Shown: in pieces, positions 45,550 through 63,903 of the stretch | Layout: the number at the start of each line of letters is the position of its first letter | Position numbering within the stretch: the first letter of the stretch is position 1 | Assembly (NCBI RefSeq): GCF_004801855.1 | Contig: NZ_SSTC01000001.1 | Location: 1 to 64,000, forward strand | Source: Pseudomonas sp. A-1 | GTDB lineage: Bacteria; Pseudomonadota; Gammaproteobacteria; Pseudomonadales; Pseudomonadaceae | Direction: 5' to 3' | DNA length: 64,000 nucleotides | Position numbers and translations under genes: made by a program | Notes under the pieces: generated by a model | Database searches by the model: none | The model's input: the letters and a program-made list of their open reading frames with translations, nothing else | What the model was told of the DNA's origin: nothing

Positions 45550-47109
45550 CTATGCGCATCCGGACTGCAGGGTCTGCGTGGCAAAGCCCACCACGCTGCG
45601 GCTGTCGCGGCAGAATTCCACGCCGATCAGGTGGATGGGCTCGCCGCGGGCGCGGTACTTGTCGGCGTAGCCGCGCGCCCTGAGCTGCTCCAAAGCATGG
45701 CCCTCGGGCACCAGCTCGACCACCTTGAATTCGAACAGGTAGACGTTGCCGTTGAACAGTACAGCCATGTCGATGCGCCCGCGGTTGGTGGAGTCCTCCA
45801 GGCGGATATCAAGGCCCAGCGCGGCGAAGTGACTGTAGAACACGCTGGCGTAGTAACCCTCGTACTGGGCGATGGGGTTGTTGCGGTACCAGTCGTGGGG
45901 AATGCTGGCGAAGAAGGCGCTGAACAGCGCCTGCAGACCAGCGAAATCGTTGGCCAGCAGCAGATCGTACAGCTGCGGCACATGGATGCCGTGGCGCGCC
46001 GGATCGTCCGACCAGGCCTGCAGCAGAGCCCCGTTCAGGCTGCTGCGCACTTCCTGGTTGGGGTAGCGCAGGCGCATCTGCATCAGGCCCGGCAGGCGGC
46101 GCACCGAGTCGATGGTCAGGTAGCCCGCCTGGAACATCAGCGCCTCGGTCGGGATGTGGTCGACATCGAAGCTCGACAGCAGCGACTCCAGCGCCACCAT
46201 CTGCTCCAGATCCGGGGTGAAGGTCTGCCGCTGGGTGAGCAGGTCGACCAGAAAGGTCGGCGTGCCCGTCTCGAACCAGAACGGGCGGAACTCGCGCTTC
46301 TGGAACAGCAGCAGCAGGTCGAAGGGGTTGTAGACCGACTCGCCGGTCCAGTTGTAGCCGTTGTACCAGACGCGGATCTCGTCGCGATCCAGTCCCGGCA
46401 GCTCCGGTGCGAACACCTGGTCCACATCGGCGTCGGTATAACCGCAGATCGCCGAATAGCGGCCATCGATGGTGATGTCGTTGAGGTTGTTCAGCCCGGA
46501 GAACAGGCTGACCTTGCTGAACTTGGACACGCCGGTGAGCATGGCGAAGCGGATATGGGCGTCGCTGTCCTTGATCACCGAATACAGGTTGCGCAGCTCG
46601 TCGCGGATCTCGCGGGCAATCTCCGGGCGGCCGAGGTTGTCGAGGATCGGCTTGTCGTACTCGTCGACCAGCACCACCACCCGCTCGCCGGCCGCGGTGC
46701 AGGCGTGGCGGATCAGTTCGGCGAGGATGCCAGCCAGCGACTGGCTGCGGCAGACGATCCCCAGGCGCTCCTGCTGCTCCTGCAGCAGTTCGCGGCTACG
46801 CTGCTCCAGCGCGGCCAGGCTGGTCAGCACGCCGCCCCCGAAGCTGATGCGGATCACCGGATGGCGCCGGCTCCAGTCCCACTGGTCATGCGCCGCCAGG
46901 CCGCGAAACAGCGGCTCGTTGCCGGCGAACAGTTCGGCCAGGGTATCGATGAACAGGCTCTTGCCGAAGCGGCGCGGGCGGGAGAGGAAGTAGTACTTGC
47001 CCTCGTCGATCAGTTGCAGTGCTATCGCGGTCTTGTCGACGTAGTAATAGCCCTCCTCGCGGATCTCGCGGAAGGTCTGGATGCCGATGGGCAGTTTCTT
47101 GCGTTGCAT
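45550..47109 (-). CDS. AAA-ATPase-like/PD-(D/E)XK nuclease family protein (DUF1703)
   Basis: A 519-residue protein of the AAA-ATPase_like plus DUF1703 type. The N-terminal P-loop is RPRRFGKS (44-51), followed by 'VVVLVDEYDKPI' (Walker B) and 'FAMLTGVSKFSKVSLFSGLN'. The C-terminal domain has a PD-(D/E)XK nuclease core: Asp447 in GRIDMAV and Glu460-x-Lys462 in LFEFKV. These proteins are widespread, often multicopy and laterally transferred; a role in mobile-element biology or defence is suspected but unproved. The ATG at 47109 starts the conserved 'MQRKKLPIGIQTFREIREEG'. Its base composition matches the core genome. Confidence 0.87.
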   Translation of the reverse strand: MQRKKLPIGIQTFREIREEGYYYVDKTAIALQLIDEGKYYFLSRPRRFGKSLFIDTLAELFAGNEPLFRGLAAHDQWDWSRRHPVIRISFGGGVLTSLAALEQRSRELLQEQQERLGIVCRSQSLAGILAELIRHACTAAGERVVVLVDEYDKPILDNLGRPEIAREIRDELRNLYSVIKDSDAHIRFAMLTGVSKFSKVSLFSGLNNLNDITIDGRYSAICGYTDADVDQVFAPELPGLDRDEIRVWYNGYNWTGESVYNPFDLLLLFQKREFRPFWFETGTPTFLVDLLTQRQTFTPDLEQMVALESLLSSFDVDHIPTEALMFQAGYLTIDSVRRLPGLMQMRLRYPNQEVRSSLNGALLQAWSDDPARHGIHVPQLYDLLLANDFAGLQALFSAFFASIPHDWYRNNPIAQYEGYYASVFYSHFAALGLDIRLEDSTNRGRIDMAVLFNGNVYLFEFKVVELVPEGHALEQLRARGYADKYRARGEPIHLIGVEFCRDSRSVVGFATQTLQSGCA

Positions 47110-47254
47110 GATCAAGACCGGGGCAGGAAGCGATTGTCGCGATTGTAGCCCTTCGCGCAGGTCCGGCCGAGCGCCTGGCCGCAAACGCAATGGCCGCCGG
47201 CAGCGGTTGTCCTGCTGCCAGCGGCCATGCGTCTGCGCGGCGAGTGTGTGGCCG

Positions 47255-48852: not shown

Positions 48853-49686
48853 TCAAAGCCCCTTCAGATACAGGTTGTCGAAGCAGTAGTTGGTCGCCTC
48901 GACGTAGCCCTCGGCGCTGCCGCAGTCGAAGCGCTGGCCCTTGAACTTGTAGGCCAGCACGCAACCGCTCTGCGCCTGCTTCATCAGCGCGTCGGTGATC
49001 TGGATCTCGCCACCCTTGCCCGGCTCGGTGTCGGCGATCAGGTCGAAGATGTCCGGGGTGAGGATGTAGCGGCCGATGATCGCCAGGTTGGACGGCGCGT
49101 CCTCCGGCCTGGGTTTCTCCACCATGGTGTTGACCCGGTAGATGTCGTTGCGGATCAGTTCGCCGGCGATCACCCCGTACTTGTGGGTCTGGTCGCGCGG
49201 TACTTCCTGGATGGCGACGATCGAGCAGCGGAACTGCTTGTACAGCTTGACCATCTGCTCCAGCACGCCGTCACCGCCGAGGTTGAGGCACAGATCGTCG
49301 GCCAGCACCACGGCGAACGGCTCGTCGCCGATCAACGGCTGGCCGCAGAGGATCGCATGGCCGAGGCCCTTCATCTCCACCTGGCGGGTGTAGGAGAAGG
49401 TGCACTCGTCGATCAGTTCGCGGGTGCCGGCCAGGTACTTCTCCTTGTCGGTACCCTTGATCTGATGCTCAAGCTCGTAGCTGATGTCGAAGTGGTCCTC
49501 CAGTGCGCGCTTGCCGCGGCCGGTGACGATGGCCATGTGCTGCAGCCCGGCATCGCGGGCTTCCTCGACCGCGTACTGGATCAGCGGCTTGTTGACGATG
49601 GGGAGCATTTCCTTGGGCATCGCCTTGGTGGCCGGCAGGAAGCGGGTGCCGTAGCCGGCGGCGGGGAACAGGCATTTGCGGATCAT
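48853..49686 (-). CDS. galU: UTP-glucose-1-phosphate uridylyltransferase
   Basis: A 277-residue nucleotidyltransferase making UDP-glucose, the precursor for LPS core, exopolysaccharides and UDP-galactose. The N-terminal nucleotide loop is '[20 protein letters not shown]', and '[10 protein letters not shown]', '[20 protein letters not shown]' and '[16 protein letters not shown]' are all GalU signatures. It has its own upstream gap and is read in the same direction as the polysaccharide genes. Confidence 0.96.
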
Positions 49687-49831: not shown

Positions 49832-50641
49832 TTACTGGGCGACGCAGTCTGGCCAGTCTTCGCCAATCCCCAGGCTGGAGGCCAGCCGCCGGTTGATCGC
49901 GTTGTAGGTGGCCACGAAGTGCGGCACCAGTTGGCGCGCCGCCTGCAGGGCCTGCAGCAGATCCTCGGGTGCCGGTTGATACTCATGCACCATGCGATTG
50001 CGCAGCGTGCGTGCCGCCAACCAGTCCTGGGTCGACCACAGCAGGCCGAGCTTTTCCGCGCGGTTGAGATTGTCCAGCGCGCTGCCCGTCCGCTCTGCCA
50101 AGGCGCGCAGGCAGGCCGGAATCAGTTTGTCGCCGAGGTTTTCCTGCAGCCTGGCGAAGCGCGAAACGAAGGCTTCCAGCGTTTCCGACGCCGCATCATC
50201 ATGCTCGAGACCGGCAAACCATGCTGTGTCTAGCGGATAGGCGAACAGGCGCTTTTCCGCACGCAATAGCCAGACGGCTTCACGCCGTACCACTTCCAGC
50301 AAGTTGAGTAGTCGCAGTTGTTCCGGGTTTTGCGCGGCGGTGGTCAATTCGATACCTTCTGTCCGGGCAATGGCATGGATCGGTTGAGGCTCGCTGGAGG
50401 GGTCGAGCAGCAGTACATCGAACTTTTGTGCGCCCAGCGCCATTTGCAATGCGGCATCGAACCTGGCAGCCGCGAGCATCCGATTGTCCAAGGCATGGCC
50501 GACCACGACCAGCAAGTCGATATCGCCACCTCGCTTGCTGTCATCGGTTCGCGAGCCGAATAGCCAGACCCGCACCTCAGGCCCGAACTGCTCACGGGCC
50601 AGCTTGACGATGGTTTCGGCGTGGGGTTGTGCAAGGTGCAT
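49832..50641 (-). CDS. fused MNT nucleotidyltransferase-HEPN protein
   Basis: A 269-residue polypeptide joining two domains that usually form a two-gene toxin-antitoxin pair. Residues 20-90 are a minimal nucleotidyltransferase: GS29-30, then Asp40-x-Asp42 (GSX9DXD) and Asp75. Residues 105-245 form an all-helical HEPN domain with Arg214-x4-His219-x-Tyr221, the RX4HXY motif of HepT toxins (also RNxxxH). In the studied MntA-HepT pair, MNT AMPylates the Tyr of this motif and silences the RNase. Both active sites look intact here, so the fusion may be self-inhibiting. It lies alone between galU and galE; the ATG at 50641 follows weak ribosome-site sequence. Confidence 0.82.
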   Translation of the reverse strand: MHLAQPHAETIVKLAREQFGPEVRVWLFGSRTDDSKRGGDIDLLVVVGHALDNRMLAAARFDAALQMALGAQKFDVLLLDPSSEPQPIHAIARTEGIELTTAAQNPEQLRLLNLLEVVRREAVWLLRAEKRLFAYPLDTAWFAGLEHDDAASETLEAFVSRFARLQENLGDKLIPACLRALAERTGSALDNLNRAEKLGLLWSTQDWLAARTLRNRMVHEYQPAPEDLLQALQAARQLVPHFVATYNAINRRLASSLGIGEDWPDCVAQ

Positions 50642-50855: not shown

Positions 50856-51878
50856 TTACTCCCCATACCCCCGCGGATTCCCCACCTGCCAGCGCCAGGT
50901 ATCCGCCATCATCGCCTCGATGCCACGCTCGGCCCTCCAGCCCAGCTCGTGCGCGGCCTTGCCCGGATCGGCCCAGCACTCGGCGATGTCGCCGGCGCGG
51001 CGCGGGGCGATGCGGTAGGCCACTGGCCGGCCGGAAGCTTTCTCGAAGGCGCGGAGCATCTCCAGCACGCTGTAGCCGGTGCCGGTGCCGAGATTCCAGA
51101 CGTGTACGCCGTTCCCGTCAGAGATCGACCGCAGCGCCTTGAGGTGGCCGTCGGCGAGATCGACCACATGGATGTAGTCGCGCACCCCGGTGCCGTCGCG
51201 GGTCGGGTAGTCGTCGCCAAATATCGACAGCTCCGCGAGCTTGCCGATGGCCACCTGGGCGATGTAGGGCAGCAGGTTGTTGGGGATGCCGTTGGGATCC
51301 TCGCCGATCAGCCCGCTCTCATGGGCACCGACCGGGTTGAAGTAGCGCAGCAGGGCGATGCTCCAGCGCGGGTCGGACTTCGCCAGGTCGCCCAGCACCT
51401 CCTCGACCATCAGCTTGGAACGGCCGTAGGGATTGGTCGGCGTTCCTGTGGGGAAGTCCTCGCGGATCGGCATCCGCTCCGGCTCGCCGTAAACGGTGGC
51501 TGACGAGCTGAATACCAGGCGGAACACTCCGGCGCGGGCCATCGCCTGACACAGCGTCACGCTGCCGGCGACGTTGTTCTCGTAGTAGGCCAGTGGCTCG
51601 CGCACGCTCTCGCCGACCGCCTTGAGGCCGGCGAAGTGCAGCACGGCGGTGATGTCATGCGCTCCGAACAGTCGGTTCAGCAGGACGTGGTCGCGGATAT
51701 CGCCTTCGACGAACAGCGGCGCCTTGCCGCAGATGCGCTCGACGCGATGCAGCGACTCGGCCGAGCTGTTGCTCAGGTTGTCCAGCACCACCACCTCGAA
51801 GCCGGCTTCCAGCAGGGCCAGGGTGGTATGCGAGCCGATGTAGCCGGCGCCTCCGGTAACCAGGATCTTTTCAGTCAC
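50856..51878 (-). CDS. galE: UDP-glucose 4-epimerase
   Basis: A 340-residue short-chain dehydrogenase-type epimerase interconverting UDP-glucose and UDP-galactose (or the N-acetyl forms). NAD+ binding loop GGAGYIGS (9-16), catalytic Ser126 in SSSATVYG and Tyr151-x3-Lys155 in NPYGRSK are all present. It is the last gene of the minus-strand polysaccharide operon, three bases after the WecG-like gene. Confidence 0.95.
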
Positions 51879-51881
51879 GGA

Positions 51882-52637
51882 TCAGCTCCCTGCACGTTTG
51901 CCCGTCAACTGGGCGAATTTTCCCTTGAGCAGCAACCAGGCGAACTTGCTGTTGGTCGTCAGATAACGCTTCCACATGCGGCCCGGCTCCTGGATCACCC
52001 GATACAGCCACTCCAGGCCCCATTTCTGCATCCACAGCGGTGCCCGTTTGACCTTGCCGGCGACCACGTCGAAGGTGCCGCCCACGCCCATCACGAAGGT
52101 TACGCCCAGCTGGTCGCGCCAGCGGTTGATGAAGTTTTCCTTCTTTGGCGAGGTGATGGCGACGAACAGTAGCTGGGCACCAGAGGTGCGGATCTTCTCG
52201 ACCATCGCCGCCTCGTCGCCCCAGAAGTAGCCGTGGTGATAGCCGGCGATCTGCAGGCCCGGATAGAGCGCCTCGACCTTACGCGCGGTGGCGGTGACCA
52301 CTTCGTCCTGCGCGCCGAGCAGATAGACCGACAGTCCCTCGCGGGCACTCATGGCCAGCAGCTCATGGAACAGATCGACGCCGGCAACGCGCTCGCGCAC
52401 GTCATGGCCGAGGAAGCGCGCGCCGGCCACCACGCCCATACCGTCGATATTGATGATGTCGCACGACTCGACCGACTCCCGCAGCTGGGCGTCGTCGCGC
52501 ATGTGTACCAGCTTGGCGACGTTGACCACCACATGCTGGGTGAAACGCCCGGCAATCACGGCCTTGCGTATGCTTTCGACGGTTTCGCCCATGCTGGCCA
52601 CATCCATCGGGCAGCCCATAACTTCAATCCGTCGCAT
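51882..52637 (-). CDS. WecG/TagA/CpsF family glycosyltransferase
   Basis: A 251-residue GT26 enzyme that adds a second sugar to an undecaprenyl-PP-linked saccharide (WecG, TagA, GumM type). Motifs are 'QHVVVNVAKLVHMRDDAQLR', 'NIDGMGVVAGARFLG', 'GLSVYLLGAQDEVV', 'AITSPKKENFINRW' and the C-terminal 'APLWMQKWGLEWLYRVIQEP'. The ATG at 52637 follows GGGGGG seven bases away. It is downstream of asnB (15 bp gap). Confidence 0.92.
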   Translation of the reverse strand: MRRIEVMGCPMDVASMGETVESIRKAVIAGRFTQHVVVNVAKLVHMRDDAQLRESVESCDIINIDGMGVVAGARFLGHDVRERVAGVDLFHELLAMSAREGLSVYLLGAQDEVVTATARKVEALYPGLQIAGYHHGYFWGDEAAMVEKIRTSGAQLLFVAITSPKKENFINRWRDQLGVTFVMGVGGTFDVVAGKVKRAPLWMQKWGLEWLYRVIQEPGRMWKRYLTTNSKFAWLLLKGKFAQLTGKRAGS

Positions 52638-52652
52638 CAGAATCCCCCCCAC

Positions 52653-54500
52653 TTAAAAACCATGCTCTTGACGCCAAAGCGCAAGCATCATCAAAGCAAA
52701 AACCTGCCGGCTTCGATCAGGTTTACAGGCCAAATGTTGTCGCCAGAGACGCTCGACCCCCTCTCTACGCAACAGCCCATCCAACCCCTCCAGCAGAAGG
52801 GGCTCAAGCCAGGCTCGCCACTCATTGCGCGACCAAGTACCGAAAGGCACTTGAAAGCCTTTCTTGGGGCGATGAACGATATCTGCAGGCAAATAGCGCT
52901 CCGCCATGGCCTTGTGGACAATCTTGCCCTTGCCCCAGCGCAAGCGGTACTCGATAGGTAAGGATTCTACAAACTGAACCAAATCGGTATCGAGCATCGG
53001 CACCCGAGCTTCCAGGGATGCGGCCATGGATATCTTATCCGCATACAGCAACAAGTCATCGGCCAGGTTCATGCGCGTATCCACACGCATCATCCTCTCA
53101 GCACCGCTCAGGCAAGGTGCTGGAGCCAACCATTGCAGCCAGTGCCCTAGCTGCTCAGATGCCCCGCCATCATCGGTCAGTCCCGTCAGAGTCTCTCGTT
53201 CCGCAGCAGTGAACAAACACGCCGCCTCGATGATCTGGCTGACGGATTCGCCCGCCGACAGTGAGCGAAACCCTCTTTCCAGAGCCTCTGGCTTTCTTTT
53301 CCAGAAAGACAGCATTGCCCCACCAGCCCGCCACAATGCAGGCCAGCCCACAATGTTGCGAAGCAGTTCTACCTGATAACGGTAATAGCCCCCCCAAGGC
53401 TCATCGGTACCTTGGCCAGTCAATACTACGGTTACATCTTCACGCGCGCGCCTGACCAACTCCCACATGGGCATCACCGAAGTTGTCCCCAACGGCTCCT
53501 CGATGCTCTTTACTATGGATGGTAAAGACGACCTGAGATGTTCCGGGGTAATAAGAACCTTATTGAACGGAAGCCCTAAGACTCTCGCGGTGTGAGCAGC
53601 ATCATCAATCTCACACTCCCGGTGTCCGCCACCAAAGCCGACCGTGAAGCAGGGAGCCAATATCCCCGCACCCTTGGCCATGGCCGCGACCAGTGCCGAG
53701 TCGATTCCTCCTGAGAGCAGGATGCCGACTGGTACATCGGACAGCAATTGCCGCTCGACAGCTTGAGAAAGCTTACTTTGATAGGTCTCTATAGCCTCTT
53801 CCATGGTTCCAGTAAAACGCTCACTCGTTGCCTGAACAAAACAGGTCTGGCTACTAGTACCTGAATTCAGATCAAAACTGAGTAAATGACCTGGAGCCAA
53901 CCGCTCCACACCCTGCCAAAGCGTAAAAGGGGATGGTGTATATCTGAGCGTGAGAAATTGCTGCAAGACCGAGCGGTCGAGGCCTGGAGCAGGAAGGCCG
54001 GCGGATTGCAGTGCTGACTTGACGGCACGCACTTCGGAGGCAAACACCAGCTTTTCATCGGTGTTAACAAAGTACAGGGGTTTAATACCAAAAGGATCGC
54101 GGGCCAGGAACAGCTTGCCCTTCAAGGTATCCAAGGCGGCAAAGGCAAACATGCCATTCAGTCGACGCAGAGCTGATGCCACCCCGTGAGCTGCGATCAG
54201 CTCGACCAGCGTTTCCGTATCAGAGTGCCCACGAAACGGGCCAGGTAACATTTTTCGCAGCTCAAGATGGTTGTAGATTTCACCATTGAACGTTACCCAC
54301 CAACGCCTGTCCCGGCTTTGCATTGGCTGGTGTCCCGCAGGGGAAAGATCAAGGATCGATAACCGTGCATGTGCCAACCGCACGGTTCGGTTGGCACAGT
54401 TAACGACTTCAAGTCCATGCCCATCAGGCCCGCGGTGTTGCAGCGAAGACAATGCTGTCTCGTTAATCGGAAGATCAACAGATCCCAGTACACCACACAT
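52653..54500 (-). CDS. glutamine-dependent asparagine synthase-like amidotransferase
   Basis: A 615-residue AsnB-type protein: N-terminal Ntn glutaminase domain with nucleophile Cys2 ('MCGVLGSVDL'), then 'HRGPDGHG', and a C-terminal synthetase domain with the PPi loop 'VGILLSGGIDSALVAAMA'. The start is fixed by the need for Cys at position 2; the preceding TTG would add a residue before it. In polysaccharide clusters such enzymes (for example WbpS) are thought to amidate uronic acids, which fits the sugar dehydrogenase at the cluster's other end. Its ATG overlaps the upstream stop (TGATG). GC is about 53% in the line counted. Confidence 0.88.
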   Translation of the reverse strand: MCGVLGSVDLPINETALSSLQHRGPDGHGLEVVNCANRTVRLAHARLSILDLSPAGHQPMQSRDRRWWVTFNGEIYNHLELRKMLPGPFRGHSDTETLVELIAAHGVASALRRLNGMFAFAALDTLKGKLFLARDPFGIKPLYFVNTDEKLVFASEVRAVKSALQSAGLPAPGLDRSVLQQFLTLRYTPSPFTLWQGVERLAPGHLLSFDLNSGTSSQTCFVQATSERFTGTMEEAIETYQSKLSQAVERQLLSDVPVGILLSGGIDSALVAAMAKGAGILAPCFTVGFGGGHRECEIDDAAHTARVLGLPFNKVLITPEHLRSSLPSIVKSIEEPLGTTSVMPMWELVRRAREDVTVVLTGQGTDEPWGGYYRYQVELLRNIVGWPALWRAGGAMLSFWKRKPEALERGFRSLSAGESVSQIIEAACLFTAAERETLTGLTDDGGASEQLGHWLQWLAPAPCLSGAERMMRVDTRMNLADDLLLYADKISMAASLEARVPMLDTDLVQFVESLPIEYRLRWGKGKIVHKAMAERYLPADIVHRPKKGFQVPFGTWSRNEWRAWLEPLLLEGLDGLLRREGVERLWRQHLACKPDRSRQVFALMMLALWRQEHGF

Positions 54501-55606
54501 CAATTCGACCCCGCGTTAAGATGTTGCAAACGGTACCTTTGATAAAGGTAAGGGGTGATTCCCCAGCGACGAAAACCCTTGCCCCAAGGCCGCCCAAAAA
54601 TATCAATGCGGCAAAACCATTCGCTATTACGCTGAAAACGTGACTCGACACGCGAAGCGAAATTTTGTGCCTCATCAAGAAGTTCGAAGTCTATCAGTAA
54701 TCCAAGATATTCAGCCTGGTCATATAAGTCCCAGCGAAATGGATCCCTGTGTGAGCGGTGACTAAATCGGCGGCACAGATTGTGTTGAGGGTCATATAGG
54801 TAATTTCGAACATATAGCCATCCATTGTTGATTGCTGGCTGGGTGAGCGCTTCCAGATTAGGTAGTAATTTTTGTGTTTTTAAGAGATTTTTTATTACAA
54901 AGCAGGAGTGAAAGCCATCGATAAAATTGCCGGGAGCGTCATCAGCGTAATAGAACCAACTCCCATTTTCCTGCTGCTGAGCCAGAACCCAGTTAATCAG
55001 GCGCTCGGCACGCTCCGTGGCCAATGCTCTGATCTCATCATTCCCATAAACGGCATGCAGTGCGTAAGCAAGTGCGGCGTAACTGTTCGCGTTGACTACC
55101 ATCCGGGGCTCTCGAATAGGCGCATAGGAAAGCGCCAACTCCGAACTGGTTGAATGCATGACCTCCAGAGTTTCAAGAAAATCCCAAGTCTGCTCAAAAA
55201 GCCGATCCGCCTTAACTTTAAACTCTGGTAGGCACGCTATGTCGAGAAGTGCCTCCATTACATAAGGCGTATTGGTGATGTAAGGAGTATTCGCTGGATA
55301 GACGCCATTCTTTGAGAACCAGGAGAATGGCAAGCCCCAAGCACAGTCACGTACTCTTGTGGTAGTGAATACATCAAGTGTTTCGCGTGGCGTGAGGTCG
55401 CCGGATAAATATCGCATTGCCTCGACATGCGCAAATATATTAGGCTTAACGCTCATGTATTTACGCAAGTGATTGGGGGCTATGATCTCCAGGATCCCTA
55501 TCAAGGGAACAATCACTGATGACTTCTTTTTTCCCTGCGTCCACTTGATTTTGAGATCACCCAGGCTGGGCAATGACCAAATATCGTAAGGGTCGTAGTA
55601 TTTCAT
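54500..55606 (-). CDS. alpha/alpha-barrel protein of polysaccharide cluster, unknown
   Basis: A 368-residue protein with a repeated helical pattern typical of alpha/alpha toroids ('NTPYVMEALLDIACLPEF', 'NSYAALAYALHAVYGNDEIR', 'ENGSWFYYADDAPGNFIDGFH', 'RWDLYDQAEYLGLLIDFELL'). The GSWFYY...DGFHSCF stretch resembles the aromatic clefts of glycan-processing enzymes of this fold. No catalytic residue can be named with confidence. No signal peptide, so it is cytoplasmic. It overlaps the acetyltransferase by four bases and asnB by one. Confidence 0.75.
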   Translation of the reverse strand: MKYYDPYDIWSLPSLGDLKIKWTQGKKKSSVIVPLIGILEIIAPNHLRKYMSVKPNIFAHVEAMRYLSGDLTPRETLDVFTTTRVRDCAWGLPFSWFSKNGVYPANTPYITNTPYVMEALLDIACLPEFKVKADRLFEQTWDFLETLEVMHSTSSELALSYAPIREPRMVVNANSYAALAYALHAVYGNDEIRALATERAERLINWVLAQQQENGSWFYYADDAPGNFIDGFHSCFVIKNLLKTQKLLPNLEALTQPAINNGWLYVRNYLYDPQHNLCRRFSHRSHRDPFRWDLYDQAEYLGLLIDFELLDEAQNFASRVESRFQRNSEWFCRIDIFGRPWGKGFRRWGITPYLYQRYRLQHLNAGSN

Positions 55607-56247
55607 TCAATATCCTTGCGGTAGCGTATAATCTTGGCTGGCACGCCAGCCGCAATACTCCAATCAGGTAGGTCTTTGGTAACTACCGATCCAGCCCCAA
55701 CAATTACGCCGGTGCCAATATTGATCCCCGGCATCACGATGACGTTTTGACCAATCCAGACATCGTCTGCAATTACTGTAAGTTTTCGTAAAGTATCGCC
55801 CTGCTGTGCCATCGGTATGTCGGTGCGAGCATAATTGTGCTGCCTGTCAAGTAAAACTACTCCTGGCGCAATCATTACATCGTTACCAATCCGGGCGGAT
55901 TTAATCGAAGTGTTCTGATTGATCTGGCAGCGATCTCCGATATGCAAATCGGGTCGAAAGCCAACATCGATACCAGGCTCCAGCTCACAGTTAATACCAA
56001 TGCGACAGCCCATTCCGATCAGGATGTAGCGGCGCAAATTGCTAAATAAAAAACCACCCGGCCAAAAGCTATGAGGAAGCCTCATTGCAATCAGTCTATA
56101 AAAGCATATGAAAAGAACAGATAAAGGCTTCACAATACTTGCCTGCTTCGTCTGGTAAGATTTAATGTTATATAAAATTTGAATTGGCGTGGAATAAACT
56201 TGTCGAATAAGCTCTATAGGATTTTTGATGTGCCTCAAGTGTTTCAC
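55603..56247 (-). CDS. hexapeptide-repeat acyltransferase
   Basis: A 214-residue left-handed beta-helix transferase of the serine/galactoside acetyltransferase type. An unusual N-terminal ~70 residues containing a hydrophobic stretch ('LSVLFICFYRLIAM') precede hexapeptide repeats ('IGMGCRIGINCELEPGIDVG', 'IGDRCQINQNTSIKSARIGN'). The catalytic His lies in 'RQHNYARTD', and 'GQNVIVMPGINIGTGVIVGA' ends the coil. It probably acetylates a sugar of the polymer. GC is low compared with the flanks. Confidence 0.88.
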   Translation of the reverse strand: MKHLRHIKNPIELIRQVYSTPIQILYNIKSYQTKQASIVKPLSVLFICFYRLIAMRLPHSFWPGGFLFSNLRRYILIGMGCRIGINCELEPGIDVGFRPDLHIGDRCQINQNTSIKSARIGNDVMIAPGVVLLDRQHNYARTDIPMAQQGDTLRKLTVIADDVWIGQNVIVMPGINIGTGVIVGAGSVVTKDLPDWSIAAGVPAKIIRYRKDIE

Positions 56248-56274
56248 GCGCGAGCGCAGCGCCAGCTATCAGGT

Positions 56275-57351
56275 TTACTTGCTCTGATGATGCTTAGATT
56301 TTTCTTCTAATGTGGAGTAAAATATCGACTCTAAGCTTCGTGCAACTTTTGAAGCGGCAAAGTGGTCGCGCGCAAAGCTTTTGTTGAATTCAGATGTTTC
56401 TTGTAATAGTACATCGCTTTCTAGGAATTTACGTATAGCTAGGGCGAAGTCCTCAGGGTTCTTGCTGCTAATCAGTTCGCCCATGTCTCCGTCAATAAAG
56501 AAATCGCAAATTCCTCCGACTGGTCGTGTAATAACGGGCAAGCCAAAGGCCATCGCCTCCAATATAGAAGTAGGCATGCCTTCCCCGTGCCACGTTGGTA
56601 GTAAGTAAATGTCAGACTGCGTGAAGGCCTCCGATAGCGCTGAGCCAGAGAGTACTCCACAGAACTCGACGTGATCTATTCTCTTGTCAATTACGAAGCG
56701 CTTTGCATCTTCCAAAGCACCTCCGTTACCCACGACTTTAAATCGCAAATCAGGAAAATCCGATTGCAGAATTTGAAATGCCGAGAGAGCAACAAAAATT
56801 CCTTTTTCCTCCTCTATTCGGGCGAGAAAAAGCAAACTTTCAACATGGTGTCTCGCTCGAATATCTCGGCCCACTATCAAACGATCATCGAATTTCGTGG
56901 TCGTTAAAAATGTCGGCGTGTGGATACCCCATTCCAGTAACTGCCTCTTAAAGGATGAGGCAAGCACTATGAAGCAATCAGCTCTTCCATAAATCCAAGA
57001 AAAAAGTTTCGGGCTACGGGATATTTTCTCGGCAAATTCCGATTCCCAGCCATGGAAAAAAACTATCTTTTTGACCGAGAAAAAACAGGATATCATCAAG
57101 AATAGTCCGTCCCTTATTGTTGCGTTTGCTATTAGGGATGGATTTAAAACAACTGCGTCGTAGCGGCCGAATGATAGTTTAATTGCAAACTTTACGAGGT
57201 CAAATGGGAGGCAAAATATTCCAGGGAGTCGCTTTCGCGATCCAATGTAATTGTAGTGAATTGTGTTTTTCCAGTAAGGAAAAAGCCCTTTGTAATGATT
57301 TGCAACTCCGCCGAGCAGGCTGGTGTCAGGTGTGTTGATTAGTACTTTCAA
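56275..57351 (-). CDS. family 4 glycosyltransferase (first)
   Basis: A 358-residue GT-B retaining glycosyltransferase (GT4). The N-terminal loop is 'TSLLGGVANHYKGLF', the C-terminal donor-binding region 'LFLARIEEEKGIFVALSAFQ' and the E-x7-E motif 'EGMPTSILEAMAFGLPV'. It is read 27 bp before the acyltransferase gene. GC is low and codons AT-rich, a sign of transfer. Donor and acceptor sugars cannot be inferred. Confidence 0.92.
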   Translation of the reverse strand: MKVLINTPDTSLLGGVANHYKGLFPYWKNTIHYNYIGSRKRLPGIFCLPFDLVKFAIKLSFGRYDAVVLNPSLIANATIRDGLFLMISCFFSVKKIVFFHGWESEFAEKISRSPKLFSWIYGRADCFIVLASSFKRQLLEWGIHTPTFLTTTKFDDRLIVGRDIRARHHVESLLFLARIEEEKGIFVALSAFQILQSDFPDLRFKVVGNGGALEDAKRFVIDKRIDHVEFCGVLSGSALSEAFTQSDIYLLPTWHGEGMPTSILEAMAFGLPVITRPVGGICDFFIDGDMGELISSKNPEDFALAIRKFLESDVLLQETSEFNKSFARDHFAASKVARSLESIFYSTLEEKSKHHQSK

Positions 57352-57740
57352 AATTACCTACCATGAGTCAGTCATCGTTTGGCTTAAAGTGGTTGTGAAG
57401 CGCTATTGGTTGATAGATAAGGTTTTTGATGCAGGGTGATCGCAAGGGCTAAGAAGCTTTATGTTGATTAAGTTTAGTGATATTTACGTCTTGGTTTGTT
57501 GTCATATTTTTAACGAGTAATCACGAAAAGCAGCGCTGACACAGAAGTCAGAACTTAATTTATTATAAGTTATTCATGTCGCTTTTCAGACTATCTCTAA
57601 AAACTTACATCTGCACTGTGCCAGACAGCGACAAAGGCTGCTTCTGGCATTCATGCGCCGGGCTAAGTGCTCGCAGGGCATCCCGCATGGCAGGTCGCGG
57701 GATGTGACCGATCAGGCCATTTTCAGCAGGCACCCCGGTA
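57352..57740. other. 389-bp gap inside the polysaccharide operon
   Basis: Gap between the two GT4 genes. 57352-57595 is AT-rich with nothing recognisable except possible promoter-like sequence. From about 57600 to 57740 GC jumps to 53-65% in the lines counted and contains a short minus-strand open frame described separately. The contrast suggests an inserted or leftover fragment. Confidence 0.6.
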
Positions 57741-57760
57741 TCAATAGGATGTGAGCTCAT
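57605..57760 (-). pseudogene. short GC-rich open frame, possible gene remnant
   Basis: A 51-codon frame (MSSHPIDTGVPAENGLIGHI...) starts within the 3' end of the second GT4 gene and ends at TAA (57605-57607). Its GC content (about 60%) is far above that of the AT-rich flanks. I do not recognise the sequence, and the ribosome site is weak (GAAAG). It may be the edge of a replaced native gene or an insertion-sequence scrap rather than a functional gene. Confidence 0.3.
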
Positions 57761-58889
57761 ATAGTCTTTCGTATTTTTTTACTACTGAAGAAGATGATAG
57801 ATATTCCTTCAGATGCGGATATGGGATTTTACTTTTCGCGGTTGATAGACTTTTTAAAAACTCGACAACGGGGGGGGTGCTACCGTCAAAATATAAAACA
57901 CCGCGACCTTCAAAAATATGCTTATTTTCACCGAGATAGCCAACAGGTGATGCAATAATAGGCAAGTTGGCTGCGAGCATCTCCAGTGGCGCCAAGCCAA
58001 ATGTTTCTTCTTCGGACAGAAAAATACCCGCGTGGTGAGTACTGTAGAGTTCGGCTATTTCAATGGGAGGGGTCTGGCCAAGAAAACGAACACAGGAGTT
58101 TAGATCGTATCTTTCAATTATATTTCTTAGCTGATTATAGTGCTCTTTGTTGTTGATAGGGCCAGCAATAGATAGGCAGGCATCAATGCCATGGTCTCGC
58201 AATGATCGTAGTAAAAGCAATATTAGATCTATTCTTTTTTTTGGATTAACAACAGAGCAAGTGATTAAACTTATCTGGTCGGTAGGCTTAGGTTCAAAGC
58301 TATTTACCTTAAAAAAAACCTCATTCAGAGGGTTGTCAATAATAATCGTTGGTGTATTTGTTTCGCCAGTCAGGGCCTTCTTCAAGATATTGCCTACACA
58401 TGTAAACTGATCGACAAAGCGTTTTGCTATGGCAGGTAAAATATTTACATACAGTAAGTCATTTAAAAGACTTTCCTTTTTTCGGCCTATCCATTTATAG
58501 GCGTGTAGAGTAGCTATACGAAAATACTTGCTGCTAACGCCTATAAGCCATACCAATTGGTGTGAATGCACGATGTCTGGTTGAAAATTTTTTATTTGCT
58601 GATGAACTCGGTATAGCTGAGAGAGAATTCCAGGTGCGAAGAGTTTTCCCAGATTTTCATTGGTGGGCGCCATAACTATACTTATATTTTTCGTTAGCTG
58701 AAGAGGCAGCTCGTTATACGTTGATTTTGAGGTAGGGTCGAAGGCCAGGACGCGGTATTCATACTTTTCAACCGGATCCTTGATCATCGTCTTGAGTAAT
58801 TCCTGACAGACAGAGTCAACGCCGCCAGCATTTTTTTTTCCAAAATCTAATGTGGATATCGGCATTATCAGCAATATTTTCTTTTTCAC
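57741..58889 (-). CDS. family 4 glycosyltransferase (second)
   Basis: A 382-residue GT-B fold protein: N-terminal 'FGKKNAGGVDSVCQELLKT' acceptor loop, 'DIVHSHQLVWLIGV', then the donor domain 'SLITCSVVNPKKRIDLILLL' and E-x7-E in 'SEEETFGLAPLEMLAANLPI'. It is unlike the other GT4 in sequence, so they should act at different linkages. AT-rich like its neighbours. Its stop is followed by the GC-rich islet. Confidence 0.91.
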   Translation of the reverse strand: MKKKILLIMPISTLDFGKKNAGGVDSVCQELLKTMIKDPVEKYEYRVLAFDPTSKSTYNELPLQLTKNISIVMAPTNENLGKLFAPGILSQLYRVHQQIKNFQPDIVHSHQLVWLIGVSSKYFRIATLHAYKWIGRKKESLLNDLLYVNILPAIAKRFVDQFTCVGNILKKALTGETNTPTIIIDNPLNEVFFKVNSFEPKPTDQISLITCSVVNPKKRIDLILLLLRSLRDHGIDACLSIAGPINNKEHYNQLRNIIERYDLNSCVRFLGQTPPIEIAELYSTHHAGIFLSEEETFGLAPLEMLAANLPIIASPVGYLGENKHIFEGRGVLYFDGSTPPVVEFLKSLSTAKSKIPYPHLKEYLSSSSVVKKYERLYELTSY

Positions 58890-58923
58890 ATCATGAACCT
58901 TTTATGGCCAACGGTCGGATGCA

Positions 58924-60204
58924 TCACCTGGCGCTTACTGTCTGAAATTCGTGCATCTTTTTAGTTAGATACAAGGACAGAAGGAATACAGCCAGTGCTG
59001 CAGTCTTAACGCTCAGTGAATTATTGGTGCTTGCCGCCAGAAGAAAAGTCAGAATGACGATTTTATATTGTAAAGATGAACCTTCAGCAAGCCATTTCGT
59101 GAGCGAAAAAAAGCCATAAATTAAAACACCAAAAACCGGCAAGCCCAAGGTAACAATTAACTGAATCCAGAAATTTTCAATAATTGAAACTGACGAAAGC
59201 CTTGCCACAAGCTGCGAGAAACCTTCCGATCCGGCTCCTAATAAATAGCTCCCGGCATCGACGCGAAGCAGGAAGTCAACAGCATCTAGTCGAGCCATAG
59301 CAGACGCATCAAAAGTGAGTCTGGATGCAATGCCAAAGCCTATATGGGTATGGAAAATTGCAAGATAAAATCCGATAACCAGTAAGACGACTAAAAAAGG
59401 AAGAATAACCACATACAACAGCCTGTTTTTTTTGCTCAGTTTTCCTGTGAATGCATAAGTCCAGAGTATCAAAAAAGTGGCTAAAATATATACTGCAAGA
59501 GAAGCTCTAGTCGCGAAAGCCAATAATGCCAAAAGACACAGGATGAATATATTCCATCGCCAGAAACGGCTAATAGGTGAGATAAGAGCCACCAAGGCAA
59601 CGGAAATCGTTATTAAAGCATTATTCAGGGGGTGAGCCATAAGCGCATTGGCCCGAAAAAACCAGTATGTTCCCGTTAAAGGGTTAGGAACAAGGTGGCT
59701 TCTGGTTGTGTACTCATAGATGGCAATTGAAGAGTTTAGGGTGATGATGTAAATAATAGCTTTGAATAGCTGCGTTGTGTGTTTTTTGTTTAGGTGGGCT
59801 GCAAGGATTAATGCTATCAATGAGTAGAGGTAAGTGTCGATGAAGTAAGCTGCCCCACCTATGCCCCACATGATAACTGTGTATAACATGGTAATGCAGG
59901 TGCATATGGTGGCTATAAAAATGGACTTGTTATTTATTGCGAAGTTAGATAGGAGTTTTCCGTAGCCGATGGCCCCACCAAGGATCAGCAGCGACGCAAT
60001 TATCACCCAAGTGCCAGGGTGGATTTTTAAAACCGGATTTCCGCCTTCGCTTGTGTAGGGGTATATGTTGTTAAGAATCGTGTCGCCCAGTACCAATCTG
60101 AGACTTATAGATAATGCCAGTAGGTAAAAGGCAAGTGCAGAAGCAGATATTGTGTGGCGAGATATATTCAACTCTAAGGCCCAGTCAAAGTCTAACGAAC
60201 GCAA
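58924..60204 (-). CDS. Wzy-like polysaccharide polymerase
   Basis: A 426-residue, Ile/Leu-rich membrane protein with about ten to twelve helices and a central periplasmic loop, as expected for a Wzy polymerase or O-antigen-ligase-like protein. 'IYEYTTRSHLVPNPLTGTYW', 'RANALMAHPLNNALITISV' and 'LLGAGSEGFSQLVARLSSVS' fall at the places where polymerases carry the catalytic loops. Low sequence conservation is normal in this family. About 35% GC in the line counted. It overlaps the GT2 gene by 13 bases. Confidence 0.82.
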   Translation of the reverse strand: MRSLDFDWALELNISRHTISASALAFYLLALSISLRLVLGDTILNNIYPYTSEGGNPVLKIHPGTWVIIASLLILGGAIGYGKLLSNFAINNKSIFIATICTCITMLYTVIMWGIGGAAYFIDTYLYSLIALILAAHLNKKHTTQLFKAIIYIITLNSSIAIYEYTTRSHLVPNPLTGTYWFFRANALMAHPLNNALITISVALVALISPISRFWRWNIFILCLLALLAFATRASLAVYILATFLILWTYAFTGKLSKKNRLLYVVILPFLVVLLVIGFYLAIFHTHIGFGIASRLTFDASAMARLDAVDFLLRVDAGSYLLGAGSEGFSQLVARLSSVSIIENFWIQLIVTLGLPVFGVLIYGFFSLTKWLAEGSSLQYKIVILTFLLAASTNNSLSVKTAALAVFLLSLYLTKKMHEFQTVSAR

Positions 60205-61193
60205 TCTGTAAGGCGTAATAAAGTTCTTTTAAATAGGTTTTTTGCCAGCATTTTTATTGGCAAGTTGGTGATTTTCATTGGTCGGCAGCAAAGTAGTCCC
60301 AGCCCGTTTGAATAAATTCCAATTATCAGGTTGGTGGCTTCAGTCAGTTCCTCAGAGTGATGAGTGCTTATAAAGTCAATGTCGTCAAATCTGCACGGGG
60401 GGCTATCAAGCTGGTTTCGGTATAGCTGGGTAATGTTCAGCAAGGAAATATCATCAAAATTTTTATATATTTGTAGTGCGGCGGCGTAAGCGCGGAATGT
60501 ATCAACGTAAGCTGAGTCATTTCTATTGTTGGCTGTCACGCTATGGGGGTTGACGACGTACTCATGAAGCATGTCTTTCATTAAATAGATTGATCGTGCT
60601 TTTTGGAATACGCCAATGTTGGTTATCATGTCTTCGTTGATTTTTTGCCTCCATGGTATATTGTCTAAAGGTAAGTTTTTAAGTATTTCGGCTCGGTACA
60701 GTTTGTTCCATAATGCACCATCACCAAACTCGAGGTTACAAAAACGGCTAAATATATCTTGGTTGATTCGCTGATTTTTTTTAAAAGACGTCCTCTTTCT
60801 TAGTCTTTTTCTCTCTGGGCTTACTTGGTACGATCCGCATATGACCACATCAACGCTCTGAGAAATTGCTGCGGTATGCAGTTTTTCGAACATGTGCTCC
60901 GTTGCTATGTCATCTGCGTCTAGAAAGCCAATCCAAGGTGAAGAGGCTACTTTAATGCCAGCCAATCTTGCCTGATAAACGCCTCTATTTTCGTTAAATC
61001 TTATGGTCTTTATATTTTTGTTTTTTGTTGCCAAGATTTCAATTTTTTTCCAAGAGTCATCTCTTGATGAGTCGTCGACCAAAATAATTTCTAATGCAAT
61101 ATTTTTTTGCCTCAATAGTGAAGTTATTGAGGCTTCAATTCGGTTTGTTGCGTTGTATATTGGTACAATAACTGAAATATTTGGGGTTGTCAT
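60192..61193 (-). CDS. family 2 glycosyltransferase
   Basis: A 333-residue GT-A inverting glycosyltransferase. 'ISVIVPIYNATNRIEASITS' and 'EIILVDDSSRDDSWKKI' form the nucleotide-binding region and 'WIGFLDADDIATEHMFEKLH' contains the DxD-type metal site. The C-terminal 100 residues are divergent and hydrophobic near the end. It starts two bases after the pyruvyltransferase stop. AT-rich. Confidence 0.92.
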   Translation of the reverse strand: MTTPNISVIVPIYNATNRIEASITSLLRQKNIALEIILVDDSSRDDSWKKIEILATKNKNIKTIRFNENRGVYQARLAGIKVASSPWIGFLDADDIATEHMFEKLHTAAISQSVDVVICGSYQVSPERKRLRKRTSFKKNQRINQDIFSRFCNLEFGDGALWNKLYRAEILKNLPLDNIPWRQKINEDMITNIGVFQKARSIYLMKDMLHEYVVNPHSVTANNRNDSAYVDTFRAYAAALQIYKNFDDISLLNITQLYRNQLDSPPCRFDDIDFISTHHSEELTEATNLIIGIYSNGLGLLCCRPMKITNLPIKMLAKNLFKRTLLRLTDCVR

Positions 61194-61195
61194 TT

Positions 61196-62332
61196 TTAGT
61201 TATTCGTGGTGCTGTGTTTTAGGAAATTTATTCCAAAGTAGGACGCAGAATTTAATTTTTCAGTTAGATTTTTTGGGGCTTCTTCAAGAATGAATTTTTC
61301 ATTTTTAAAGGGCATTTTTTTGTTTGATAATAGCTTTTCGCATTCAAAACTTCTGGATAGGGATTCAATTCTCGCCTGGCCGCGTCCCTCATTCCTTATG
61401 ACGAAAAATGGCTTCCCAAATATAATTGAGAAAACCATTCCGTGAAAAGAATCAGTTACCACATAGCGGCAATTGGCAAACCCAGCTAACCAGTCCAGGC
61501 AGCTCGGCATAATGAAGCTATCTAGGCTGCCTTGGAATTCATCAGTCACACTTAGTCGTGCCTGACAGGAATAAACCGGCTCATCCAACTGCTCGCTGGC
61601 TTGCTGTGCTAGAGTCTGTTTGGCCGGTGTTTTATCGAGGAAGTAGGTGTAAACGCCGTAGGGTTTGCTGCTCAGCCGCTCGGGGCCGATCAGTTGCTGG
61701 TAATCGGCCTTATCCAGCAGCAGGGTGGGGTCAAGTACGTGGCTGGCTTCTACACCAAGGTGTTTGCGGCACAGCTCGACGCCTGAGTCCTCGCGCACGC
61801 TGATGGAGTCGAACCGTTTGGCCAACGCCGCGCAGCGTCGGGTCTGCTCTTCGGTAAACTCCCATTCGTCCACGCCGAAGGATGATGCGTAGGCAATACG
61901 CTTAATTTCGAAGCCTTCAAGAAAATCGAGAAAGAAGTTTTCAATGTTCGGTGAATATTGGGGGCGCCAAGTTTGGTCGCTACCGACGATCACTGCGTCG
62001 TATTCCTCGCGGACAAAATGCGCCTTGAGTTTTGCAGTGCTGCCAAGTGGTTCAGATATGCTGAGGTTTTGGTCAATAAACGCTCGGGTGTGCTGCAGAA
62101 TGGTCGGCAGATGGCGCTCGAAATTGATCGGGGCTTTGCGTTTGCCCAGTGCCTTTTGCAGTGTGCGATAGCCAAGGCGGGCAGCATGGTAAGCTAGACC
62201 TTTAGCATCCGGTTGGCGGTCAATAGTAACTGGGTTATGCCCCATGCGTTTAAGCACCTGCTGCAGCGCCCAAGCTTGCATGATGCCACCGTAGTTTGTT
62301 CCCAGAGGCTGGGTCATGATTGCTATTTTCAT
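61196..62332 (-). CDS. polysaccharide pyruvyltransferase family protein, composition mosaic
   Basis: A 378-residue GT-B-like protein of the CsaB/WcaK pyruvyltransferase family, which puts ketal pyruvate on sugars. Motifs: 'TQPLGTNYGGIMQAWALQQV' at the N-terminus, 'DAVIVGSDQTWRPQY', 'RIAYASSFGVDEWEF', 'ISVREDSGVELCRKHLG' and 'VTDSFHGMVFSIIFGKPFFV'. The first two thirds of the gene (about 61560-62332) are GC-rich (65% in the line 61741-61800), but the end (61201-61320) is about 30% GC, so a recombination joint lies inside the reading frame without breaking it. Confidence 0.88.
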   Translation of the reverse strand: MKIAIMTQPLGTNYGGIMQAWALQQVLKRMGHNPVTIDRQPDAKGLAYHAARLGYRTLQKALGKRKAPINFERHLPTILQHTRAFIDQNLSISEPLGSTAKLKAHFVREEYDAVIVGSDQTWRPQYSPNIENFFLDFLEGFEIKRIAYASSFGVDEWEFTEEQTRRCAALAKRFDSISVREDSGVELCRKHLGVEASHVLDPTLLLDKADYQQLIGPERLSSKPYGVYTYFLDKTPAKQTLAQQASEQLDEPVYSCQARLSVTDEFQGSLDSFIMPSCLDWLAGFANCRYVVTDSFHGMVFSIIFGKPFFVIRNEGRGQARIESLSRSFECEKLLSNKKMPFKNEKFILEEAPKNLTEKLNSASYFGINFLKHSTTNN

Positions 62333-62364
62333 GCTTATTGATGCTCTACATTTTTCTGCTTTTT

Positions 62365-63903
62365 TTAATTTGTAGAAAAATTAAAAAATTTTCTACATGA
62401 CTTGGTTGTAATTTTGGATAAATACTTCTTTTCCAGGTTGTCAAGCCCAAGCAGGTAAATCGTAATAATCGTGCTGGTGACATTAATAAGTAGCCCAAGA
62501 AAAAGAGTCAGGCCGCTCGCGCTTTCAAAAACCATAAGATAATTAATTGTCCCAGCAGTAGAGGAAACCATAATGACGCGACTGATAGTTAGTTTCAGGT
62601 AACGGACCACGGCCATACCTGTCAGACGCCGCAAGATAATCAGGCGAGCGAATAATGCAGTCGCTTCAAAAATGATGCTCGTCCAGAGCACCAGAGTCGG
62701 CTTTTGCCAAATAGTCAACGCTAGGAAGGATAGTGGCACATTGCAAAGCAATAACCCACCGACCACGGTCTGGTATAAGCGGATCTTCCCTGTGGCTTGG
62801 GCTAAGGTCATCATGGGCCGTGATAGGGATTCGATCAGTGAAGCGATGATTGTTAGTCTCAGAAATACTGCAGCGTATTCTGGGGGTGCCGCCAGCCAGA
62901 TACCCAGCAGTTGCTCGGTATAAAGAAGTACCGGCATAGCGAGGGTGAGCAACAGAAAGAAGTTGTATTTCGATGCTTTCTGAACCAGTTCGTGCATCTG
63001 CTGATGCTGCCCGGCAGCGTATTGCTTGATAATCTGCGGATTGATAGCTGCTTGGACGTTCGACACGAATTGATTCAATGCACCATTGGCCTGAGAAGCG
63101 ATGCTACGACCAGCATTGACGGCAGGGCCAAAGAAGATATTAAGCAGGACGTTATTACCATGCCCGGACATGGCTGCCGCCAGGTTTCCCCAGGTGCTCC
63201 AAGCGGTAAAACCGAGCATGCTGCGAAATCGCTCGCCATCCCAACCCCACTGCAACCGCACCGCCGGGAAGAGGGTGTGGTTGATCAGCAGGTAGCCGCT
63301 GAAGCTGATCAGTGCCACGCCCAACAACAGCGCGGCGTAGGTGCTCAGTTTGTCAGAGGCCAAGTATGACAATAGCAATACCGCCACCAGCTTGAGCAGT
63401 ACATCGGTCATGCTCATCAGAGCAAACAGTCCCATGCGTTCGTTGGCCATGAGCATTGCGGTCAGGGGAACTGTCATCACGCTGACGGCAAATGCAGCGA
63501 TCGACAGGTGATAGGCCGTGAGCGCGGCATCCAGCCGGTCGGGTGGGATGGTCAGTTGGGTACTGACGAACCAGTAACCAGCCGTTTCGGCCAGCAGCGC
63601 GATGCACATTGCCATCAGTGCGTGAATCTGCAGGCTGGTATTGAACAGACTGCGCAGATTGCTGCCCTCGTTCTGCCCGAGGTCAAAGGCAAAATAACGC
63701 TGGGTAGCAGTGGTCATCGCGCCTTGCATGAAGCCCAGCAGGGCCACAAAACCGGCCACCACATGGTAGGTACCAAAATCCTCGATACCGAGCACCTCCA
63801 ATACAACGCGGGAGGTATAGAGGCCGACGGCCATGGCCAACAGCATGCGCATGTACAGCATGGCCGTGTTGCGCAATATGCGCTTGTGGTTGCTGGCTAG
63901 CAT
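62365..63903 (-). CDS. Wzx-type polysaccharide flippase
   Basis: A 512-residue MATE/MOP-superfamily membrane protein with about 12-14 helices, the right size for a lipid-linked oligosaccharide flippase. N-terminal 'RILRNTAMLYMRMLLAMAVG' and 'TSRVVLEVLGIEDFGTYHVV' are typical of Wzx/RfbX-like proteins. It would move undecaprenyl-PP-linked repeat units to the periplasm for the Wzy-like polymerase. It begins four bases after the stop of the upstream dehydrogenase gene. Confidence 0.9.
   Translation of the reverse strand: MLASNHKRILRNTAMLYMRMLLAMAVGLYTSRVVLEVLGIEDFGTYHVVAGFVALLGFMQGAMTTATQRYFAFDLGQNEGSNLRSLFNTSLQIHALMAMCIALLAETAGYWFVSTQLTIPPDRLDAALTAYHLSIAAFAVSVMTVPLTAMLMANERMGLFALMSMTDVLLKLVAVLLLSYLASDKLSTYAALLLGVALISFSGYLLINHTLFPAVRLQWGWDGERFRSMLGFTAWSTWGNLAAAMSGHGNNVLLNIFFGPAVNAGRSIASQANGALNQFVSNVQAAINPQIIKQYAAGQHQQMHELVQKASKYNFFLLLTLAMPVLLYTEQLLGIWLAAPPEYAAVFLRLTIIASLIESLSRPMMTLAQATGKIRLYQTVVGGLLLCNVPLSFLALTIWQKPTLVLWTSIIFEATALFARLIILRRLTGMAVVRYLKLTISRVIMVSSTAGTINYLMVFESASGLTLFLGLLINVTSTIITIYLLGLDNLEKKYLSKITTKSCRKFFNFSTN

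Follow-up and report, generated by a model that had tools for sequence, protein, structure and literature searches.

In toxin-antitoxin (TA) systems the toxin is ordinarily set free once its antitoxin is lost, a logic that no longer holds when an antitoxin enzyme and its toxin are fused. How can a toxin live permanently tied to its own off-switch? The question is raised by a gene of Pseudomonas sp. A-1 which lies between galU and galE in the window (here, the whole stretch of 64,000 nucleotides analysed), and the clade to which this gene belongs is useful for asking it. A first-pass annotation read the gene as a one-gene MNT-HEPN fusion of 269 residues; its coordinates, strand and length are correct, and both active-site motifs are present as described. 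The gene is a conserved MNT-HEPN fusion, related to two-gene operons with overlapping genes. In each genome it is one gene, and its place on the chromosome varies. On balance, we favour the view that it is a one-polypeptide HEPN-MNT (type VII-like) TA module. Its parts and its flanking genes are as follows.

48853..49686, minus strand: galU (UTP-glucose-1-phosphate uridylyltransferase), flank, outside the unit; ORF, with copies 84-99% identical in congeners
49832..50641, minus strand: MNT-HEPN fusion gene, 269 aa plus stop; single open frame, with four more fused orthologues at 72-75% identity
49871..50326, minus strand: HEPN domain helices, residues 106-257; AlphaFold/DSSP, and Foldseek (8xdj, 8xeh, 1jog, 5yep, 7ae6)
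49979..50002, minus strand: RX4HXY motif RNRMVHEY, R214/H219/Y221; R, H and Y the same throughout the five-member fused clade, motif present in 59 of 61 units
50327..50341, minus strand: inter-domain linker, residues 101-105; lowest model confidence (block 101-110, pLDDT 64)
50342..50641, minus strand: MNT (minimal nucleotidyltransferase) domain, residues 1-100; weak Pfam Polbeta/NTP_transf_2 matches, phmmer (5yep, 1no5), Foldseek (1no5, 8xeo) and DSSP
50417..50419, minus strand: third catalytic Asp, D75; invariant in 61 of 61 units
50516..50557, minus strand: GSX9DXD active-site motif, residues 29-42; invariant in 61 of 61 units
50856..51878, minus strand: galE, flank, outside the unit; ORF

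Translation of the minus-strand ORF gives G29-S30-X9-D40-I-D42 and D75 in the MNT half and R214-NRMV-H219-E-Y221 in the HEPN half. R214 and H219 are putative RNase residues, and Y221 is the putative AMP-acceptor Tyr. A promoter and terminator scan at the gene found nothing, and a Pfam PF01934 search found no second HepT-like gene in the window's own genome.

Predicted fold and family assignment

AlphaFold2, given a 12-row alignment, models the 269-residue protein with a mean pLDDT of 87.6 and a pTM of 0.61, a value at which neither the domain-domain arrangement nor the reach of Tyr221 in cis is to be trusted. Residues 1-100 adopt an alpha/beta fold and the joint near 101-106 has low confidence; DSSP places the helices of the HEPN half at residues 106-132, 139-143, 149-180, 188-197, 204-218 and 225-257. 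The MNT half ends at strand 97-99 and lacks a C-terminal alpha4 helix; the next helix, 106-132, belongs to HEPN. A HEPN fold had been proposed to follow residue 105, and the helical domain at 106-257 bears this out. Foldseek against the PDB gives matches for each domain: the MNT half matches HI0073 (1no5), MntA (6m6u/7bxo) and Legionella MNT (8xeo). The HEPN half matches the AMPylated HEPN toxin 8xdj (target-normalised TM 0.73-0.77), the HEPN-MNT complex 8xeh (TM 0.76), HI0074 (1jog, 0.76) and the di-AMPylated 7ae6 (0.66). These matches have a probability of 1.00 with E-values of only 1e-3 to 1e-2 (best 1.3e-3), probably a consequence of the two-domain query and of low sequence identity.

The protein falls below the cut-off of every curated Pfam, NCBIfam and PADLOC model and gives sub-threshold matches only. 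Measured against the Pfam gathering scores, it obtains 20.6 vs 21 bits for NTP_transf_2 (PF01909), 22.1 vs 26.9 for Polbeta, 12.8 vs 23.5 for HepT-like (PF01934) and 12.0 vs 31.8 for PF08780. The NCBIfam MntA model gives 18.1 vs 60 bits, and the aminoglycoside nucleotidyltransferase model ANT_9 gives 10.7 vs 340. There is no PADLOC family for the fusion; the best match (PDC-S09, E=0.0063) extends across the MNT part only. Among the relatives described below, the two-gene unit L048 exceeds the HepT-like cut-off (24.4 vs 23.5 bits) and the fusion L029 exceeds that of NTP_transf_2 (25.2 bits). Searches of the PDB with phmmer matched the first half of the protein to MntA (5yep, E=0.0026) and HI0073 (1no5, E=0.0086); a match to the HEPN toxin 7ae9 is insignificant (E=0.87), and its aligned stretch includes RNRMVHEY.

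In S. oneidensis, MntA (GSX10DXD) puts three AMPs on Tyr104 of HepT (RX4HXY), and the RNase is silenced (PMC7641770). This type VII pair (SO_3166/SO_3165, PF01934/PF01909; 5yep, 6m6u, 7bxo) has in common with the fusion the MNT and HEPN folds, the RX4HXY motif with its acceptor Tyr, and DXD with a third Asp. HepT and MntA are encoded by two genes, with MNT usually upstream, whereas the fusion is one ORF whose nearest relatives keep the two-gene layout. The published signature is GSX10DXD (PMC7641770), so the GSX9DXD of the window's family has one residue fewer; the fusion also lacks the alpha4 docking helix of MntA, removal of which weakens adenylylation and neutralisation in S. oneidensis (PMC7641770). 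Because of its gene layout, its motif spacing and its scores below the NCBIfam and Pfam cut-offs, the fusion is not filed as a strict HepT/MntA system.

The Legionella pneumophila HEPN-MNT system (8xdj, 8xeh, 8xeo) also combines an MNT without alpha4 with RX4HXY, and its HEPN is among the closest fold matches to the HEPN half. It differs in consisting of two proteins, a HEPN tetramer binding one MNT; its Tyr105 is modified inefficiently (PMC11586414). The RNase centre of the Legionella HEPN has been assigned to Q44/E47, a Mg site on helix alpha2, and the RX4H residues are dispensable (PMC11586414); an intact RX4HXY is therefore no proof of RNase activity. In the family of the window protein Q166, K172 and P175 are invariant on the long helix 149-180, so that a Legionella-like alpha2 site is possible, its counterpart being putative. 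HI0073/HI0074 (1no5/1jog) provides the best single structural match to the MNT half and a strong fold match to the HEPN half; it is encoded by two genes, and the original interpretation was of a substrate-binding subunit, not a toxin.

An MNT-HEPN fusion was mentioned in 2009 on plasmid pAgK84 (PMC2701414). In 2013, HEPN-M was described as occasionally joined to MNT, with MNT-fused HEPN domains typically devoid of RNase residues (PMC3710099). The fusion as such has therefore already been reported, and the window's clade, which has the RNase residues, is an exception to the published description. The pAgK84 fusion, which we take to be WP_011199109, also has MNT and HEPN in one protein; its HEPN is of the PF05168 type and its similarity to the window protein is marginal. 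It was rejected as a precedent for an active fusion since it has no RX4HXY. No report of a one-gene form with its catalytic residues intact turned up in a search of the open-access literature.

Fused and two-gene relatives

The full-length fusion is found in four of 248 Pseudomonadaceae genomes: that of the window, one of the same genus (G003), Azomonas agilis (G031) and G443. It is absent from the same-species genome G442. Among 84,980 species genomes, a scan revealed a further fusion in Rhodocyclus purpureus, together with records from Azomonas and from the Pseudomonadaceae MAG UBA5811, whose protein reads identical to that of G443. An assembly or frameshift artefact is ruled out by the recurrence of the fusion in independent genomes.

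The closest relatives at 50% identity or less have two genes, MNT first and HEPN second. A total of 61 complete MNT/HEPN units was scored, comprising 54 two-gene and seven fused units; these were drawn from best-scoring loci, so 7/61 is not an estimate of fusion frequency. The first-pass annotation is right that MNT and HEPN usually occupy separate genes, but fusions were already in print (PMC2701414, PMC3710099). GSX9DXD and the third Asp are present in every unit, and RX4HXY in all except two, where the His is replaced by Y or Q. The first-pass annotation had named loss of R214/H219 or DXD in homologues as a refutation of its reading; these residues are conserved. The two-gene HEPN relatives L016 and L022 read RNQMVYEY and RNQMVQEY, retaining the Tyr with the His of RX4H substituted, which is consistent with the dispensable His of the Legionella enzyme.

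In 33 of 37 two-gene units with a placeable start, the HEPN ATG overlaps the MNT stop, mostly by 4 bases, and HEPN is in a different frame from MNT. One small indel at the overlap thus suffices for fusion. The joint in the fusion is about five residues long, and linker 101-105 occupies the position of the MNT stop/HEPN start overlap of the two-gene relatives. In a maximum-likelihood tree the window, congener, Azomonas, UBA5811 and Rhodocyclus proteins form one clade (support 99/100), and the expectation that the fusion would be conserved in homologues is borne out by these five. The tree needs three changes between the fused and two-gene states overall; its well-supported branches alone are compatible with fewer. 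The two remaining fusions, L029 and L019, lie outside the clade and look independent. L029 (1462-2241, minus strand) carries RNHIAHEY and is 93% identical to L100, a copy in another genome from its family. L019 is perhaps damaged at its 5' end, where a TAG lies inside the matched stretch.

Within the fused clade, nonsynonymous distances range from 0.21 to 0.37 in MNT and from 0.14 to 0.20 in HEPN; synonymous distances are 1.1 or more and often saturated. G29, S30, D40, D42, D75, R214, H219 and Y221 are all invariant, and residues 181-200 are identical in all five members. Purifying selection maintains both halves of the protein.

Other arrangements were also observed. In a Pseudomonadaceae genome, L004 (1295-1839) has an MNT shortened after about 46 matched residues and a HEPN reading RNLLTHEH, in which the acceptor Tyr has become His; it is probably a decaying unit. 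Fused and two-gene forms coexist in G443, which carries the fused protein and a separate, divergent MNT/HEPN pair (L038, L040). Several tandem MNT genes, a number of them paired with HEPN, are packed into a few kilobases at L009, L014, L017 and L020, a pattern that looks like accumulation of MNT/HEPN modules at hot spots.

Genomic surroundings

In G002 the gap between galU and galE measures about 145 bp, and in G442 it is close to 180 bp; in the window it is 1,169 bp and contains the fusion. The gene is inserted at a site which stands empty in congeners. Its third-position GC is 73%, compared to 92% for galU and 88% for galE, consistent with later arrival. Upstream, positions 51882-63903 hold a polysaccharide cluster, so that the location assigned by the first-pass annotation, between galU and galE and beside a polysaccharide locus, is right. 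Pfam identifies a WecG-type transferase, an asparagine synthase and a hexapeptide acetyltransferase in this cluster; glycosyltransferases, polymerase-like and flippase-like proteins are read from the translations only. Just past pgm, at 45550-47190 (minus strand), there is a gene for a PF09820 AAA-ATPase-like/PDDEXK_9 protein, the flanks of which are nearly adjacent in G442; it looks like another insertion.

Except where Pfam was used, neighbours are named here and elsewhere by reading their sequences. The UBA5811 fusion has an rmlB-like gene on one side and a galE-like gene on the other, and rmlD/A/C-like genes come next. Those of Azomonas and G003 border on sugar-nucleotide gene clusters close to der-hisS, and that of Rhodocyclus comes after a gene for a cadherin/RTX-repeat protein. 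All four Pseudomonadaceae fusions are thus in or beside polysaccharide loci, with neighbours that differ from host to host. Around the two-gene relatives a modest number of neighbouring ORFs (7 of 115) match sugar-epimerase families. A fixed functional link to galU/galE is rejected because neighbours vary among hosts. Polysaccharide loci are subject to frequent exchange, and hitch-hiking is therefore enough to account for the location. No conserved gene for a trigger or a de-AMPylating partner was found beside the fusion among the neighbourhoods examined. In Azomonas agilis the adjacent dCTP deaminase gene (L045, 6906-8066, minus strand) reads ...YARC-FRGDTRVAL...VHNC-GIIVN..., and on this reading appears to carry an intein-like insert.

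Proposed mechanism and alternatives

From homology we infer that the fusion may be an RNase and that Tyr221 may be AMPylated. With ATP as its substrate, the MNT half would AMPylate Tyr221 in the HEPN half, either in-chain or across a HEPN dimer or oligomer, and the RNase would be kept silent from the moment of synthesis. The constitutive silencing in cis suggested by the first-pass annotation is thus plausible, and modification inside an oligomer would have the same effect. Known HEPN toxins are active as dimers or tetramers. More loosely, the covalent join may replace the alpha4 docking helix of MntA-type antitoxins and allow efficient modification during synthesis. The RNase might become active once AMP is lost (by a phosphodiesterase, by failed re-AMPylation at low ATP or by a binding trigger), or once the chains rearrange, and growth would then be slowed. 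The unit would probably serve as a maintenance or stress/defence element carried in exchangeable surface-polysaccharide regions. A narrower proposal, which we advance tentatively and which may well prove wrong, is that of a self-silencing RNase. Each chain would AMPylate its own or its dimer partner's active-site Tyr while folding and would have no separate antitoxin; release would come only with AMP removal or chain opening, for example upon infection or falling ATP. To our knowledge this would, if true, be the first cis-working type VII system to be shown. The fusion also raises the matter of AMPylation reversal, a question for type VII systems generally, for which as yet unidentified phosphodiesterases have been postulated (PMC7641770).

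The fusion could instead be a domesticated enzyme which modifies proteins or small molecules, the HEPN half being a substrate-binding or regulatory part as in GlnD/GlnE or aminoglycoside nucleotidyltransferases, possibly with a role in sugar-nucleotide or polysaccharide metabolism. In the judgement of Anantharaman et al., MNT-HEPN fusions are for the most part domesticated enzymes without activity (PMC3710099), and the position of the four Pseudomonadaceae members within or bordering polysaccharide loci agrees with domestication. However, such fusions typically lack the RNase residues which all members of the window's clade retain, the neighbouring enzymes vary by host, and the gene is missing from nearly all Pseudomonadaceae genomes searched. 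Nor is the two-domain arrangement of full-length AadA/ANT matched in Foldseek (TM about 0.2-0.26, rmsd at least 17), a comparison in which the model's own arrangement is uncertain. We consider domestication unlikely. The view that these fusions are mostly inactive can be tested directly on a conserved clade in which neither site has been lost.

Less probable again is an immune sensor whose autoinhibition would be lifted when a bound phage product opens the protein. A fused toxin-antitoxin protein is able to act in this way, as CapRel demonstrates, and by analogy a phage trigger is possible (PMC9712102). CapRel resembles the fusion in having toxin and antitoxin domains in one chain and in its autoinhibition, which is presumed for the fusion; its domains and chemistry are unrelated, and its antitoxin domain works by binding, not AMPylation. 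Another HEPN protein, Tha, is reported to be a phage-activated effector (PMC11087260), and a patchy distribution and a polysaccharide-locus site would suit defence. Against this, no variable sensor region was identified in the fusion, PADLOC has no family for it, and no relatives were found in the viral contigs or phages searched; the phage-defence role suggested by the first-pass annotation gains no support from these searches. Its other suggestion, a stabilising element, fares no better if stabilisation of the plasmid type is meant, as the plasmid search gave one stray match only, an MNT-like protein in Parabacteroides adjoining rplU/rpmA.

It is very improbable that the gene is a functionless remnant or passenger, left when a frameshift joined the two genes of a TA pair and activity was lost: a single indel at the 4-base overlap would be enough to fuse the genes, and some relatives look damaged (L004) or have the His replaced (L016, L022), but the fused orthologues share 72-75% identity with the window protein, nonsynonymous change is far below synonymous in both domains, the active-site residues are invariant, and the second fusion is likewise kept in two genomes.
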